From assembly GCA_023381355.1 (NCBI GenBank), contig JAMCUL010000014.1:1-64000 (forward strand): a stretch of 64,000 bases of DNA. Direction: 5' to 3'. The notes beneath the pieces were generated by a model. It was not told the DNA's origin, ran no database searches, and worked only from the letters and a program-made list of their open reading frames with translations. The translations under genes and the position numbers were made by a program. The stretch is from Thermoplasmatota archaeon (GTDB taxonomy: Archaea > Thermoplasmatota > Thermoplasmata > Thermoplasmatales > Thermoplasmataceae). Positions 8,510 to 12,355 of the stretch are shown here, one piece after another (positions within the stretch are counted from its first letter, which is position 1; the number at the start of each line of letters is the position of its first letter).

Positions 8510-8884
8510 ATGTCTGAAATAGGAACGATAAGATATCTGCTTGCGCTGATTGGAGGCGTGATTTCTCTCTTGAGTGGGATTCTTGTGCTGGTATTCAGCC
8601 TGATAGGAGCCACAATTTCCGCGTTTGTCATTTTCTCTCCAATAAGTTTTGCTGGCCTTGCAGGAACTGTAGGCTTTTTCATCCTGATTGTATACGCTCT
8701 TGTAATACTCATTCTTTCATACGCAATCATCAACTATTCCGGTGAGCTCAAAAGCAGCAGGAAGAACAAGACTACGTATGGGATACTGATTCTTCTCTTC
8801 AGTATTGTGTTATTTTTCATAGGGGCAGGTTTCGCTATTGGACCCATCCTGTCTGGAATTGGAGGATTACTCATAATCCTCTGA
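8510..8884 (+). CDS. Four-helix membrane protein (DUF4064-like)
   Basis: A 124-residue, very hydrophobic protein with four predicted helices (about 8-30, 36-58, 60-75 and 88-122), glycine-rich in the first and last. Size and topology resemble the DUF4064 group of small membrane proteins, but this is resemblance, not a motif match. A positively charged loop, K-S-S-R-K-N-K, separates helices 3 and 4. It is convergent with the regulator gene at 8889, with four bases between the stops. Confidence 0.65.
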   Translation: MSEIGTIRYLLALIGGVISLLSGILVLVFSLIGATISAFVIFSPISFAGLAGTVGFFILIVYALVILILSYAIINYSGELKSSRKNKTTYGILILLFSIVLFFIGAGFAIGPILSGIGGLLIIL

Positions 8885-8888
8885 AAAA

Positions 8889-9290
8889 TTAGTTTGAAGA
8901 AATATATTCCTTTCTCGAGTTGAGCTCAGAAAGGAGATCGCTAAGAAGTTTTTTCATGCCCTGACTTAATGATTCGATTTTCTTCATTATGAGATCCGAC
9001 AACTTATCTATGGACAGCAAGCTGTATACAAAGTAATAACCACCCTCCTTAAGCGTTCTAACGTCCCTTACGGCTAGCCCTGAATTGACAAGTTTCTGAA
9101 GTGACCTGTAAACAGTACTGGATTCCTTCCCTGTAAGGAAGGACAGATCAGCAACCGTCTTCCACCTTCCCTCATCGAGAGAATAAAAAATAATTACTTC
9201 AGTTGGTCCGAGGGAAAATAGAGTCTCCAAAAGATCAGAACAGCAGGCTATTTCCGAACTGATCTTGGAAGAAAGGTTATCCTTGGACAT
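8889..9290 (-). CDS. Winged-helix transcriptional regulator (TrmB/MarR-like)
   Basis: A 133-residue predicted DNA-binding protein. Residues about 25-85 form a winged helix (L-G-P-T-E-V-I-I-F-Y-S-L, then T-V-Y-R-S-L-Q-K-L-V-N-S-G-L as recognition helix), followed by a C-terminal helix likely for dimerisation. The fold matches archaeal COG3355-type regulators. It is divergent from trxA, and the 106 bases between hold a perfect 7-bp inverted repeat beside the trxA TATA box. A plausible reading is that it regulates itself and the thioredoxin operon. No cysteine in the wing suggests direct thiol sensing, although C17 and C18 lie near the N-terminus. Confidence 0.8.
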   Translation of the reverse strand: MSKDNLSSKISSEIACCSDLLETLFSLGPTEVIIFYSLDEGRWKTVADLSFLTGKESSTVYRSLQKLVNSGLAVRDVRTLKEGGYYFVYSLLSIDKLSDLIMKKIESLSQGMKKLLSDLLSELNSRKEYISSN

Positions 9291-9318
9291 ATGGTGATAT
9301 TATTATTCCATACTTAAC

Positions 9319-9343
9319 GGTTTTGCTTGATATTGTCAAAACC
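9319..9343. promoter_or_regulatory. Operator-like inverted repeat upstream of trxA
   Basis: GGTTTTG (9319-9325) and CAAAACC (9337-9343) are perfect inverted arms with an 11-base spacer, directly upstream of the TATA-like ATAAAATACTTAA at 9345-9357. The position fits a binding site for a dimeric winged-helix protein such as the divergently encoded regulator. Confidence 0.5.
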
Positions 9344-9396
9344 ATAAAATACTTAAACTGGATTTCAATATCCATTTGAGTCTTGGAGTGATTCAA

Positions 9397-9804
9397 ATGG
9401 ATGACGACGTTGAACTGGAAAGAATCCGGAAACAGATGATGGCCAGGATTCAGAACGAAAGTGTTAAAAAAGAGGTAAAAAATATGAAACCGATAGAATT
9501 AACTGATGGCACGTTTGCAGACGCTGTGAAAAAGGAAAAGATACTCGTTGTAGATTTCTGGGCATCATGGTGTGCACCATGCAGATTTCTCTCACCAATA
9601 ATCGAAGAACTGGCGAAGGATTACGCTGGCAAGATCACATTTGGGAAGGTTGATGTCGATGCGAACCCCAAGGTGAGCGCATCCTTCAACATAAGCAGCA
9701 TTCCTACCGTCATGATGTTCAAGGATGGTAAGGTTGCTGATGTGAGTATAGGAGCTGTGCCAAAGCAGATGCTCGAGACAAAACTTAAAAGGCTGATGAA
9801 CTGA
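9397..9804 (+). CDS. trxA: Thioredoxin
   Basis: A 135-residue cytoplasmic thioredoxin. The redox motif W-C-A-P-C is at residues 58-62, with the conserved D-F-W-A-S before it and the cis-proline in S-I-P-T-V-M-M-F. An N-terminal extension of about 32 charged residues precedes the fold, longer than in bacterial TrxA. I chose the ATG at 9397 because GGAGTGAT at 9384-9391 is a strong ribosome binding site; a TTG at 9376 would add seven residues. It is the first gene of an operon with thioredoxin reductase (one base apart) and a Rieske protein. Confidence 0.93.
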   Translation: MDDDVELERIRKQMMARIQNESVKKEVKNMKPIELTDGTFADAVKKEKILVVDFWASWCAPCRFLSPIIEELAKDYAGKITFGKVDVDANPKVSASFNISSIPTVMMFKDGKVADVSIGAVPKQMLETKLKRLMN

Positions 9805-9805
9805 T

Positions 9806-10783
9806 ATGAAGTATGATGTGATAGTTATTGGTGGGGCTTTTGCAGGGTTAACTGCTGCCCTTTATTCTTCACGGCAGGGCATGAAGACTCTGGTCCTGAC
9901 AAAAGATATTGGTGGACAGGGTCTTCTAACCAACGATATACAGAATTATCCGGGCTTCACATCGATTTCAGGGTTTGATCTGGCCAATAAGTTTCAGGAA
10001 CAGGCTTCCCTTTATGGAACAGAATTTATCTATGACGAGATTACTGGAATAGAAGATAAGGAAGGGGAATTCATCGTAAAAACCAGGGAGGAAGCTCATG
10101 AGGCTGACTCAGTTGTCCTTGCTTTCGGCAAGACTCCCCGTGATCTTGGTTCTCCAGGCGAAGAGAAGTACAAGGGAAGGGGCGTTTCATATTGCTCAAT
10201 ATGCGATGGTCCTCTTTACCGGAACAAGGATGTAATGGTGGCAGGTGCAGGGGATCATGCACTTCAGGCAGCGCTTTATCTTGCGACGGTCGCCTCTAAG
10301 GTTTATGTCCCTGAGAAAGGGAACAGGATCTCGGGCTCTGAGGACATGATAAACGATGCAAGGGCCCTTCCGAATATCGAGTTCATATATGAGTCAGATG
10401 TTGCGGAGATTAAGGGAGAGAAAACTGTACAGTCTGTATCACTGAAGACAAAATCCGGTTCAATTTCCGAAATACCCGTTAGGGCAGTATTTGTTGAGAT
10501 GGGATACGTGGCCAAAACATCAATGTTAAAGGGTTTTGTTGATATGAATAAGGATGGAGAAGTTCTTATTGATATGAGTGGTGCTACCAGTCACCCTGGG
10601 GTCTTTGCGGCCGGAGATGTAACAAACATACCTTACAAGCAGGCGATCATATCGGCGGGTCAGGGATCAGTAGCTGCCCTGTCCGCTATCAACTATATAC
10701 ACAGGAAGCGCGGAAAGGGTGCAATGAAGTCAGACTGGAAGTATATTCCCGCAGCCAGGAAAGAGGAAAAAATAAACCTATGA
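9806..10783 (+). CDS. trxB: Thioredoxin reductase-like FAD protein, NADPH motif degenerate
   Basis: A 325-residue low-molecular-weight TrxR-type flavoprotein. The FAD dinucleotide fold is at residues 8-15 (I-G-G-A-F-A-G-L), the redox pair C-S-I-C at 130-133, and the second FAD motif G-V-F-A-A-G-D-V near 268. The pyridine-nucleotide domain has G-A-G-D-H-A at 147-152, but the H-R-R-x-x-F-R-A segment that grips the NADPH 2'-phosphate is replaced by Y-V-P-E-K-G-N-R-I-S-G. The Thermoplasma acidophilum enzyme is reported not to use NADPH or NADH, and this sequence agrees. The downstream Rieske gene overlaps it by four bases, so the electron donor may be a protein. Confidence 0.9.
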   Translation: MKYDVIVIGGAFAGLTAALYSSRQGMKTLVLTKDIGGQGLLTNDIQNYPGFTSISGFDLANKFQEQASLYGTEFIYDEITGIEDKEGEFIVKTREEAHEADSVVLAFGKTPRDLGSPGEEKYKGRGVSYCSICDGPLYRNKDVMVAGAGDHALQAALYLATVASKVYVPEKGNRISGSEDMINDARALPNIEFIYESDVAEIKGEKTVQSVSLKTKSGSISEIPVRAVFVEMGYVAKTSMLKGFVDMNKDGEVLIDMSGATSHPGVFAAGDVTNIPYKQAIISAGQGSVAALSAINYIHRKRGKGAMKSDWKYIPAARKEEKINL

Positions 10784-11112
10784 GAATCCGTATAGATCCT
10801 CAAAATTTTGATTCAAAGGGACGCCAGCGAATAAAGGTTGATTCTTTCGATTTAACTGTCTTAAAAAAGGATAATGACTATTTTGCCTTTGATTCCAAAT
10901 GCCCTCATAAAGGTGGGCCCTTATTTTTGGGCAAGCCTATTGGTGAAAATGGCATTATGTGTCCTTCACATCACATCATTTTTGATATTCGCTCAGGCGA
11001 GGTCATTGAAAACCCCATACCGGAAAGCATGTCAGATTACAGAATCTGTGGTATGCTCAGGACTTTTAATATCGAAACGAATGATGGAAAAATGAATGTA
11101 ATTGTGGACTGA
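10780..11112 (+). CDS. Rieske [2Fe-2S] protein, small soluble type
   Basis: A 110-residue ferredoxin-like Rieske protein. The cluster ligands are C41-x-H43 (C-P-H-K-G-G-P-L) and C61-x-x-H64 (C-P-S-H-H), followed by F-D-I-R-S-G-E. There is no signal peptide or membrane helix, so it is cytoplasmic. The size matches ferredoxin components of dioxygenases or NirD-like proteins, but no oxygenase or reductase partner is nearby except TrxB, whose stop it overlaps (ATGA). Translational coupling with TrxB implies a shared function, perhaps electron transfer to or from the reductase. Confidence 0.9.
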   Translation: MRIRIDPQNFDSKGRQRIKVDSFDLTVLKKDNDYFAFDSKCPHKGGPLFLGKPIGENGIMCPSHHIIFDIRSGEVIENPIPESMSDYRICGMLRTFNIETNDGKMNVIVD

Positions 11113-11203
11113 CATGGATAGGTTGATCAAATGAAAACCGAATTCTTAGAAATTCTTTTATAAATTTTTATTGATTTAAATTTCTGTAACAGTTGAGAAA
11201 GCA

Positions 11204-12355
11204 TCAGATCTTGAATTTCTTCCTGTTCTTCCTCCACCAGATTCTGTCAAGATAACTATTCACTATTTCATCCTGGAATTCCTTTTCCTGAAGATTACTA
11301 AAGATCTGTTCAGACAGATCGTGTTTTCCAAGTTTATAAAGACAGATTGCTTCATGGAGGGCAGCCTCCTCATCCTCCTCTATTTCCTGCGCTTTTCTGA
11401 AGGATTCAGCTGCTTTCTCGAAATCATCCATAGATTCCAGAACCTTTCCCTTTATAATGTATGCCTCTTTTTCATCATCATCAAGGGCGATTGCACTTTC
11501 AATTCTCTCAATAGCCAAATCATATTTTTCCCTATCAAGATAGAATTCAGCAAGATCCATCAACGGCTCAGCATCGTCACCTGATATCTCCACTGCCTTT
11601 TCGTAATATTTTTCGGCAAGCTTCTCGTCATCGAGCTCATCAAGGAGAGAGGCGAGGTCAGAATAGAAAGCTGGTTGTTCCTTATCCACATCTATGCATT
11701 GCATTATGTAATTGAAGGCATCCGGTACTTTGTTCAGTGCAAGTGAATCCCTGAATAGCATATAAAGAGCCTCAAGGTTTTCAGGGTCAGCCCTGGCAAG
11801 CTCCTTCAGGATCTTAATACTCTCCTCTATCTTTCCTTCCTCCTCAAGTATCCTGCAGAAATTGAGGGCATATTCAGGGTTCTTGTCCATCTTGTAAGCA
11901 GTCTCGGCCTCTATGAGTGCCTTCTTTGGCTCTCCCATATTCTGGTAAATGTTGCTCTTTATGTAATGTGCCTCAACCATGTCATGGTTCTTGAGAACAT
12001 CATTCACTATGGTAAGACTGTTCTTCATGTCGCCAAGAGCCATGAGTATTGAGGCATACTGCAATGCGAACTCAGGTTTTTCCTTGTCTATGGAATATGC
12101 CTTTTCCGAATGTTTCCTTGCCTTCTCGAGTTCACCAATCTCCACGTATGCTTCAGATGCAAGTGAATAAGCATCAGACCTGCTGGAATCAAGTTCAATT
12201 GCCCTTAGAAAATATTCCAGGCTCTTTTCGTATTCTCCGCCTGCGAGCAGTTCGAATCCCTTGCCGATTTCATCCTCGTAACTTGTCAATTTATATCGGT
12301 ACTTAATTTGGGATCTGTTCTTATACCTTTTCAACTGCCGCTCGTGATTCGACAC
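11204..12355 (-). CDS. TPR-repeat protein
   Basis: A 383-residue soluble protein made almost wholly of tetratricopeptide repeats; about nine or ten 34-residue units run from residue 30 to 365 (for example G-E-Y-E-K-S-L-E-Y-F-L-R-A-I-E-L-D). The first 25 residues are basic and the last 12 are again basic (W-W-R-K-N-R-K-K-F-K-I). TPR arrays are scaffolds for protein complexes; the partner is not evident. It is convergent with the Rieske gene and divergent from cysteine synthase. Confidence 0.85.
   Translation of the reverse strand: MSNHERQLKRYKNRSQIKYRYKLTSYEDEIGKGFELLAGGEYEKSLEYFLRAIELDSSRSDAYSLASEAYVEIGELEKARKHSEKAYSIDKEKPEFALQYASILMALGDMKNSLTIVNDVLKNHDMVEAHYIKSNIYQNMGEPKKALIEAETAYKMDKNPEYALNFCRILEEEGKIEESIKILKELARADPENLEALYMLFRDSLALNKVPDAFNYIMQCIDVDKEQPAFYSDLASLLDELDDEKLAEKYYEKAVEISGDDAEPLMDLAEFYLDREKYDLAIERIESAIALDDDEKEAYIIKGKVLESMDDFEKAAESFRKAQEIEEDEEAALHEAICLYKLGKHDLSEQIFSNLQEKEFQDEIVNSYLDRIWWRKNRKKFKI

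Follow-up and report, generated by a model that had tools for sequence, protein, structure and literature searches.

Which electron donor serves a thioredoxin reductase that has lost the NADPH 2'-phosphate motif and whose gene overlaps that of a small Rieske protein? This question is raised by a locus in a 64,000-nucleotide stretch of DNA from a Thermoplasmatales archaeon, the whole of which is referred to here as the window. Known thioredoxin reductases (TrxRs) take their electrons from NAD(P)H, F420 or ferredoxin, with one case of a hydrogenase, and it was originally predicted that here the Rieske protein could carry electrons to the reductase (TrxB). With somewhat less than even confidence, we favor the reading that TrxB is an FFTR-like reductase with the Rieske protein as its dedicated partner.

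A tight operon and its putative regulator

The genes trxA, trxB and a soluble Rieske gene form a tight operon (Table 1), in which trxB ends and the Rieske gene begins within one ATGA, an overlap of 4 bp, as had been claimed for this locus. In the window genome (1.57 Mb, 90% complete), trxA is 94-97% identical to its nearest relatives, and its N-terminal extension of about 30 aa ahead of the thioredoxin domain (9397-9490) is found genus-wide. At one locus (L069, G049) trxA and trxB are spaced by 421 bp, compared with 0-1 bp in related genomes, possibly as the result of an insertion. Elsewhere the window genome encodes a second small Rieske ferredoxin as well as a Rieske protein of the bc1 type (G000:C23:62496-62735 and G000:C13:41721-41906; CQHLGC, CDCHGSTYD).

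Table 1. Positions of the genes, motifs and candidate regulatory elements of the locus in the window.
Feature	Position	Strand	Remarks
Winged-helix regulator (ArsR/Lrs14/Sta1-like HTH), divergent	8889-9290	-	PF01022 2.8e-06 and NCBIfam Sta1 2.5e-09, both weak
Operator candidate, inverted repeat GGTTTTG-N11-CAAAACC	9319-9343		just upstream of CTTAAA (TATA-like) box
trxA	9397-9804	+	135 aa thioredoxin, WCAPC; TIGR01068 7.1e-35, over cut-off
trxB	9806-10783	+	325 aa, low-Mr thioredoxin-reductase-type flavoprotein, DW-tail clade, without HRR
CSIC redox-active disulfide	10193-10204	+	residues 130-133; C130 and C133 invariant in 42 sequences
GAGDHA, retained GxGxxA dinucleotide-fold motif	10244-10261	+	
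PEKGNRISG segment replacing NADPH 2'-phosphate motif HRRDxFRA	10310-10336	+	
SDWK tail	10730-10741	+	residues 309-312; W311 aligns with W315 of Gloeobacter FFTR
Soluble Rieske-type [2Fe-2S] gene	10780-11112	+	110 aa; Pfam PF00355 E=2.5e-12
Cluster ligands C41-P-H43 ... C61-P-S-H64	10900-10971	+	C-P-H-x17-C-P-S-H; invariant in 13 orthologues
NPIPESMSDY	11011-11040	+	lineage-specific conserved motif, candidate docking surface

The HTH gene adjoins trxA across much of the family, and its product carries a Cys-Cys pair near the N terminus, present as an ACC motif in every complete homologue of the window genus (g1) and with the second Cys widely kept. The inverted repeat probably represents an operator, as its perfect form was matched exactly once in each of 8 of the 12 genus genomes, in every case before trxA, with no control matches, and an intergenic alignment revealed near-perfect copies in three further genus genomes. 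The HTH protein probably regulates the trxA-trxB-Rieske operon, and a dedicated, thiol-responsive switch can reasonably be proposed from these sequence features.

Motifs, types and C-terminal tail of the reductase

The window TrxB retains the CxxC and FAD folds (CSIC and GGAFAG), and the position of HRRDGFRA in E. coli TrxB is occupied by PEKGNRISG, so that both of these elements of the original prediction were borne out. Two of the features used to recognize FFTR-type enzymes, CxxC with an FAD-binding motif and the absence of HRR, are found in this protein, which gives no match to the VxxxHRRDxxRA motif of canonical NADPH-dependent TrxRs (NTRs) and scores 308 bits with TIGR01292, under the 343-bit equivalog cut-off. 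Most likely, the window reductase no longer uses NADPH. The earlier description of TrxB as having no NADPH motif is correct for the 2'-phosphate segment but not for GxGxxA, which survives as GAGDHA, and NAD(P)H might therefore still be bound. An NADH-type Glu in PEKGN was rejected as a general rule, as nearly all relatives carry Gln. The AlphaFold monomer model of TrxB has a mean pLDDT of 90, with low confidence in the C-terminal tail.

The order holds three TrxB types: type A, to which the window enzyme belongs, type B of Thermoplasma with an IEYMP or IAHSK segment, and type C with the canonical HRRxxFRA. Type A is without HRR in every genus examined, Rieske-linked or not, and since such TrxBs are without HRR throughout the family and in other archaea where no Rieske gene is linked to them, the loss of the motif predates the Rieske protein. 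The tie between the two that had been implied does not hold, and the Rieske protein was rejected as the cause of the loss. The original prediction also drew on an analogy with the Thermoplasma acidophilum TrxR as an NAD(P)H-independent enzyme. In the genome that we take to be that of T. acidophilum, type B alone was found in our search, and type B forms a separate, fully supported group in the tree (starred support of 100). Moreover, the T. acidophilum TrxR, initially regarded as NAD(P)H-independent, has since been reported to depend on NADH (Susanti et al. 2017, as cited in PMC6262447 and PMC6211008). The analogy is thus outdated and was rejected.

Type A TrxBs run beyond the usual TrxR end as a (S/T/A)DW(K/R) tail, in which D310 and W311 are invariant among 42 aligned sequences from Thermoplasmata, Nitrososphaeria, Thermoproteota, Marsarchaeota, a few DPANN archaea and bacteria. 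In a tree that took in neither FFTR sequences nor the atypical Desulfovibrio reductase TRi, the DW-tail sequences formed a single, mostly archaeal group (68 rows; SH-aLRT 93 by a quick method), and its immediate neighbours in the tree were without the tail. An HRR-like motif is absent in 95 of 99 scored DW-tail sequences, and GxGxxA is altered in 22. The four early-branching enzymes that retain HRR-like motifs indicate that the tail is older than, or independent of, the motif loss, and that the tail alone is no proof of ferredoxin use. Tandem trxB-like genes, one of them DW-tailed, occur in Doudnabacteria (two genes each in L161 and L165, three in L160) and might encode a heterodimer.

Local alignments to 5J60 end at chain residue 318 or 319 and set W311 of the window TrxB on residue 318, where the Trp of another DW-tail member and that of a tail-only profile also fall. 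The entry is the Gloeobacter FFTR (GvFFTR), which has 317 native residues (Table A1, PMC8469568), and from its chain of 320 aa we infer three extra residues, an offset by which residue 318 would correspond to W315. In GvFFTR, W315 of one protomer stacks on the FAD of its partner (PMC12796991), and the structure of the GvFFTR complex with ferredoxin (Fdx) has been solved (PMC8469568, PMC12796991). FFTRs are without the GxGxxA/G dinucleotide motif (PMC9025218); with its GAGDHA, the window TrxB is therefore not classed among the FFTRs but taken for an enzyme that may work like one.

The Rieske protein and its linkage to trxB

Among 117 genomes of the order, strong Rieske matches (E < 1e-20) were confined to the window genus and its sister genus g5. 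Wherever a trxB locus was read in these genera (10 g1 genomes besides that of the window and three of g5, one truncated at a contig end), the Rieske gene lies directly 3' of trxB, the two overlapping by 4 bp or standing a few bases apart. The linkage in close relatives, whose absence would have spoken against the original prediction, thus extends to 11 g1 and three g5 genomes. The HTH/trxA/trxB/Rieske block recurs in 13 further genomes from the two genera, so that the arrangement is not due to chance, and since the flanking genes in g5 differ from those in g1, the linkage is more than a common neighbourhood. HTH-trxA-trxB is the older part, and most of the family has it without the Rieske gene. 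In one g5 genome (L075, G069; 8801-11717) the block adjoins membrane hydrogenase/complex I-like genes, identified by eye only.

The TrxBs of g1 and g5 form one group in the tree (starred support of 96), and the sister genus g11 has types A and C and no Rieske. No second TrxR was found in 13 of the 14 Rieske-linked genomes as opposed to 11 of 50 other type-A genomes (a second one occurs in one, G050, on a 5.2-kb contig, and in 39, respectively), a contrast that counts as one evolutionary event and not many, as the genomes are related and several are incomplete; its Fisher p value therefore adds no independent support. The gain of the Rieske gene and the loss of other TrxRs fall on about the same branch, as one correlated event. 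The second TrxR of G050 (L104, G050:C8, 1987-2910) is a canonical HRK-type TrxB and is basal in type C; it might reflect contamination or late transfer.

A further linkage was found in Nitrososphaerales, where one contig (L148) carries a 117-aa Rieske gene and a DW-tail trxB in divergent orientation, about 50 bp apart, and four relatives at 84-89% TrxB identity share the arrangement (five genomes in total). This Rieske protein is only 29% identical to that of the window and closer to other Rieske groups, so that the second pairing arose separately. It is supportive, not decisive: each genome has a few Rieske genes and some 30 lineages were viewed, so that one such neighbour by chance is not very improbable (roughly estimated at 0.15). 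The same TrxB type occurs in many genera without a linked Rieske gene, which counts against the partnership.

The window Rieske protein has the CxH-x15-47-CxxH ligand pattern of Rieske-type ferredoxins. High-potential Rieske proteins are recognized by disulfide Cys, Ser and Tyr near the cluster (PMC12445004). None of the 13 orthologues has the disulfide Cys pair, and the Ser and Tyr positions are taken by I66 and F68, both invariant (C61-P-S-H-H-I-I-F), so that a low-potential cluster is predicted. N78, P79, P81, M84 and Y87, within the motif that may serve in docking, are likewise invariant in the 13 orthologues and absent in the other Rieske proteins compared. The AlphaFold model has a pLDDT of 95, and its best fold matches are Rieske ferredoxins of dioxygenases, including BphA3 of the BphA3-BphA4 pair (2YVJ); no oxygenase gene was seen beside the Rieske gene in the neighbourhoods examined. 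Amino-acid changes are far below the saturated silent changes, which indicates selection on the gene, with dS too saturated for exact ratios. The rate of evolution of the Rieske protein is three to five times that of trxB, which is odd for an obligatory partner of TrxB.

Other Thermoplasmatales Rieske proteins (32-36% identity) were rejected as orthologues, as they belong to a separate subfamily near CO/xanthine dehydrogenase-like genes. In a different genus of the family, members of such a small-Rieske subfamily (CPKHHAxFN, NINGFFKAMTRKEA) adjoin genes of this kind (L229, L230, L225 and relatives). Regular-expression matches for Rieske in L120, L144 (the second), L160 and L180 were judged to be false positives.

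Electron donors and the direction of flow

Reported Rieske potentials range from about -173 to +312 mV (PMC9004368), while typical thioredoxins lie at about -290 mV and the FAD of GvFFTR at -448 mV (PMC12796991). Flow from a Rieske protein to TrxR would thus be uphill, by more than 100 mV at pH 7 and standard conditions, and flow from flavin to Rieske is thermodynamically downhill. As a 2e/2H+ couple, thioredoxin gains 59 mV in potential per pH unit as the pH falls, so that an acid cytoplasm would narrow the uphill gap for a Rieske donor without removing it. Of the proposal that the Rieske protein carries electrons to the reductase, the Fe-S partner is plausible, and strengthened by the Trp tail and the second linkage, but the direction is unfavorable. 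It is improbable, in our estimate, that the Rieske protein donates electrons to TrxB, itself supplied by a ferredoxin reductase or from elsewhere, and we give the same low standing to the stronger form, in which it would be the direct, main donor of the sole TrxR, the flow being made workable by an acidic cytoplasm and a cluster tuned to low potential. The linkage in g1, g5 and Nitrososphaerales speaks for a donor as it does for any partner, as do the gain of the Rieske gene on the lineage losing other TrxRs and the Fe-S nature of the FFTR donor; apart from the energetics, however, flavoproteins of the same superfamily that are paired with Rieske ferredoxins, such as BphA4 with BphA3, send their electrons from flavin to Rieske. 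A literature search for a Rieske-thioredoxin reductase pair returned nothing relevant.

The downhill direction from flavin to Rieske favors a somewhat less improbable reading, in which TrxB would act in reverse or sideways as a Rieske-ferredoxin reductase and pass electrons through the Rieske protein to an unlinked oxygenase or other acceptor. The fold matches and the cluster surroundings agree with it, whereas the lack of a linked oxygenase gene and the presence of trxA in the same operon, which points to thioredoxin reduction, do not. Rather unlikely, though the most serious competitor, is the use of NADH (or of both pyridine nucleotides) by TrxB through GxGxxA, the Rieske protein being a stress protein under shared regulation that takes no direct part in reducing thioredoxin. 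The retained GAGDHA and the fast evolution of the Rieske protein are in line with this reading, but GxGxxA is altered in part of the DW-tail group, and the Rieske linkage is strict across two genera and recurs elsewhere. Likewise, the Glu in the window motif VYVPEKG, a residue frequent in NAD-binding folds, is Gln in nearly all relatives, and the T. acidophilum TrxR, also without HRR yet reported to be NADH-dependent, comes from another clade and has no DW tail. A supply of thioredoxin by F420 or by an Fe-S ferredoxin:thioredoxin reductase (FTR) can almost be discounted: an F420-dependent TrxR exists in M. jannaschii (PMC6262447), but F420 ligase (PF01996; controls positive) and FTR beta (PF02943) were both absent from the 12 genus genomes.

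4Fe-4S ferredoxin-like domains are present in the genus, including in short open frames, and a ferredoxin donor is thus available in principle. In the reading that we prefer, the FFTR-like reductase with a dedicated Rieske partner, a probably thiol-sensing, dedicated regulator would control trxA, the DW-tail TrxB and the Rieske ferredoxin as a self-contained thioredoxin operon. TrxB is the only TrxR found in nearly all genomes of the g1/g5 lineage, and the Rieske protein would be its dedicated Fe-S partner in one-electron exchange at the flavin; a low-potential 4Fe-4S ferredoxin is the likelier basic donor of TrxB, in FFTR-like fashion. If TrxB and the Rieske protein are partners, the role of acceptor or relay has about an even chance and that of donor a smaller one, the rest falling to a role outside electron transfer; the likelihoods given for the alternatives overlap that of the preferred reading where only the direction differs.

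A 2020 review of archaeal redox systems mentions FFTRs only for certain bacteria and, once, for a methanogen. If the preferred reading is true, the DW-tail clade would extend FFTR-like reduction of thioredoxin, driven by Fe-S proteins, to many archaea, among them Thermoplasmata, Nitrososphaeria, Thermoproteota and Marsarchaeota, and the Rieske operon offers a concrete three-protein system in which the question of the donor of DW-tail enzymes is directly testable. A Rieske protein acting as direct main donor would, if true, be a thioredoxin donor route so far undescribed.

Among known systems, FFTRs are without HRR as the window TrxB is, and the tail Trp of GvFFTR aligns with W311; ferredoxin use by the window enzyme is a prediction. 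The window enzyme is only 34% identical, however, keeps GxGxxA and has as its operon partner a Rieske protein and not a plant-type ferredoxin. The T. acidophilum TrxR (3CTY) has the TrxR fold, lacks HRR and comes from the same order, but it stands in its own starred clade at about 34% identity, without DW tail or Rieske linkage and with the NADH dependence noted above. In Desulfovibrio TRi (TQGK motif), HRR is similarly replaced by a Gln/Lys/Gly-rich segment, and the enzyme is NAD(P)H-independent with a donor unidentified in the literature; it differs in belonging to an anaerobe bacterial group, in its degenerate GxGxxA and in that no Rieske partner has been described. Finally, BphA4-BphA3 of biphenyl dioxygenase (2YVJ) likewise combines a Pyr_redox_2 flavoprotein with a Rieske ferredoxin that is soluble and folded like that of the window, whereas BphA4 takes NADH, has no CxxC relay and passes electrons from flavin via Rieske to the oxygenase.
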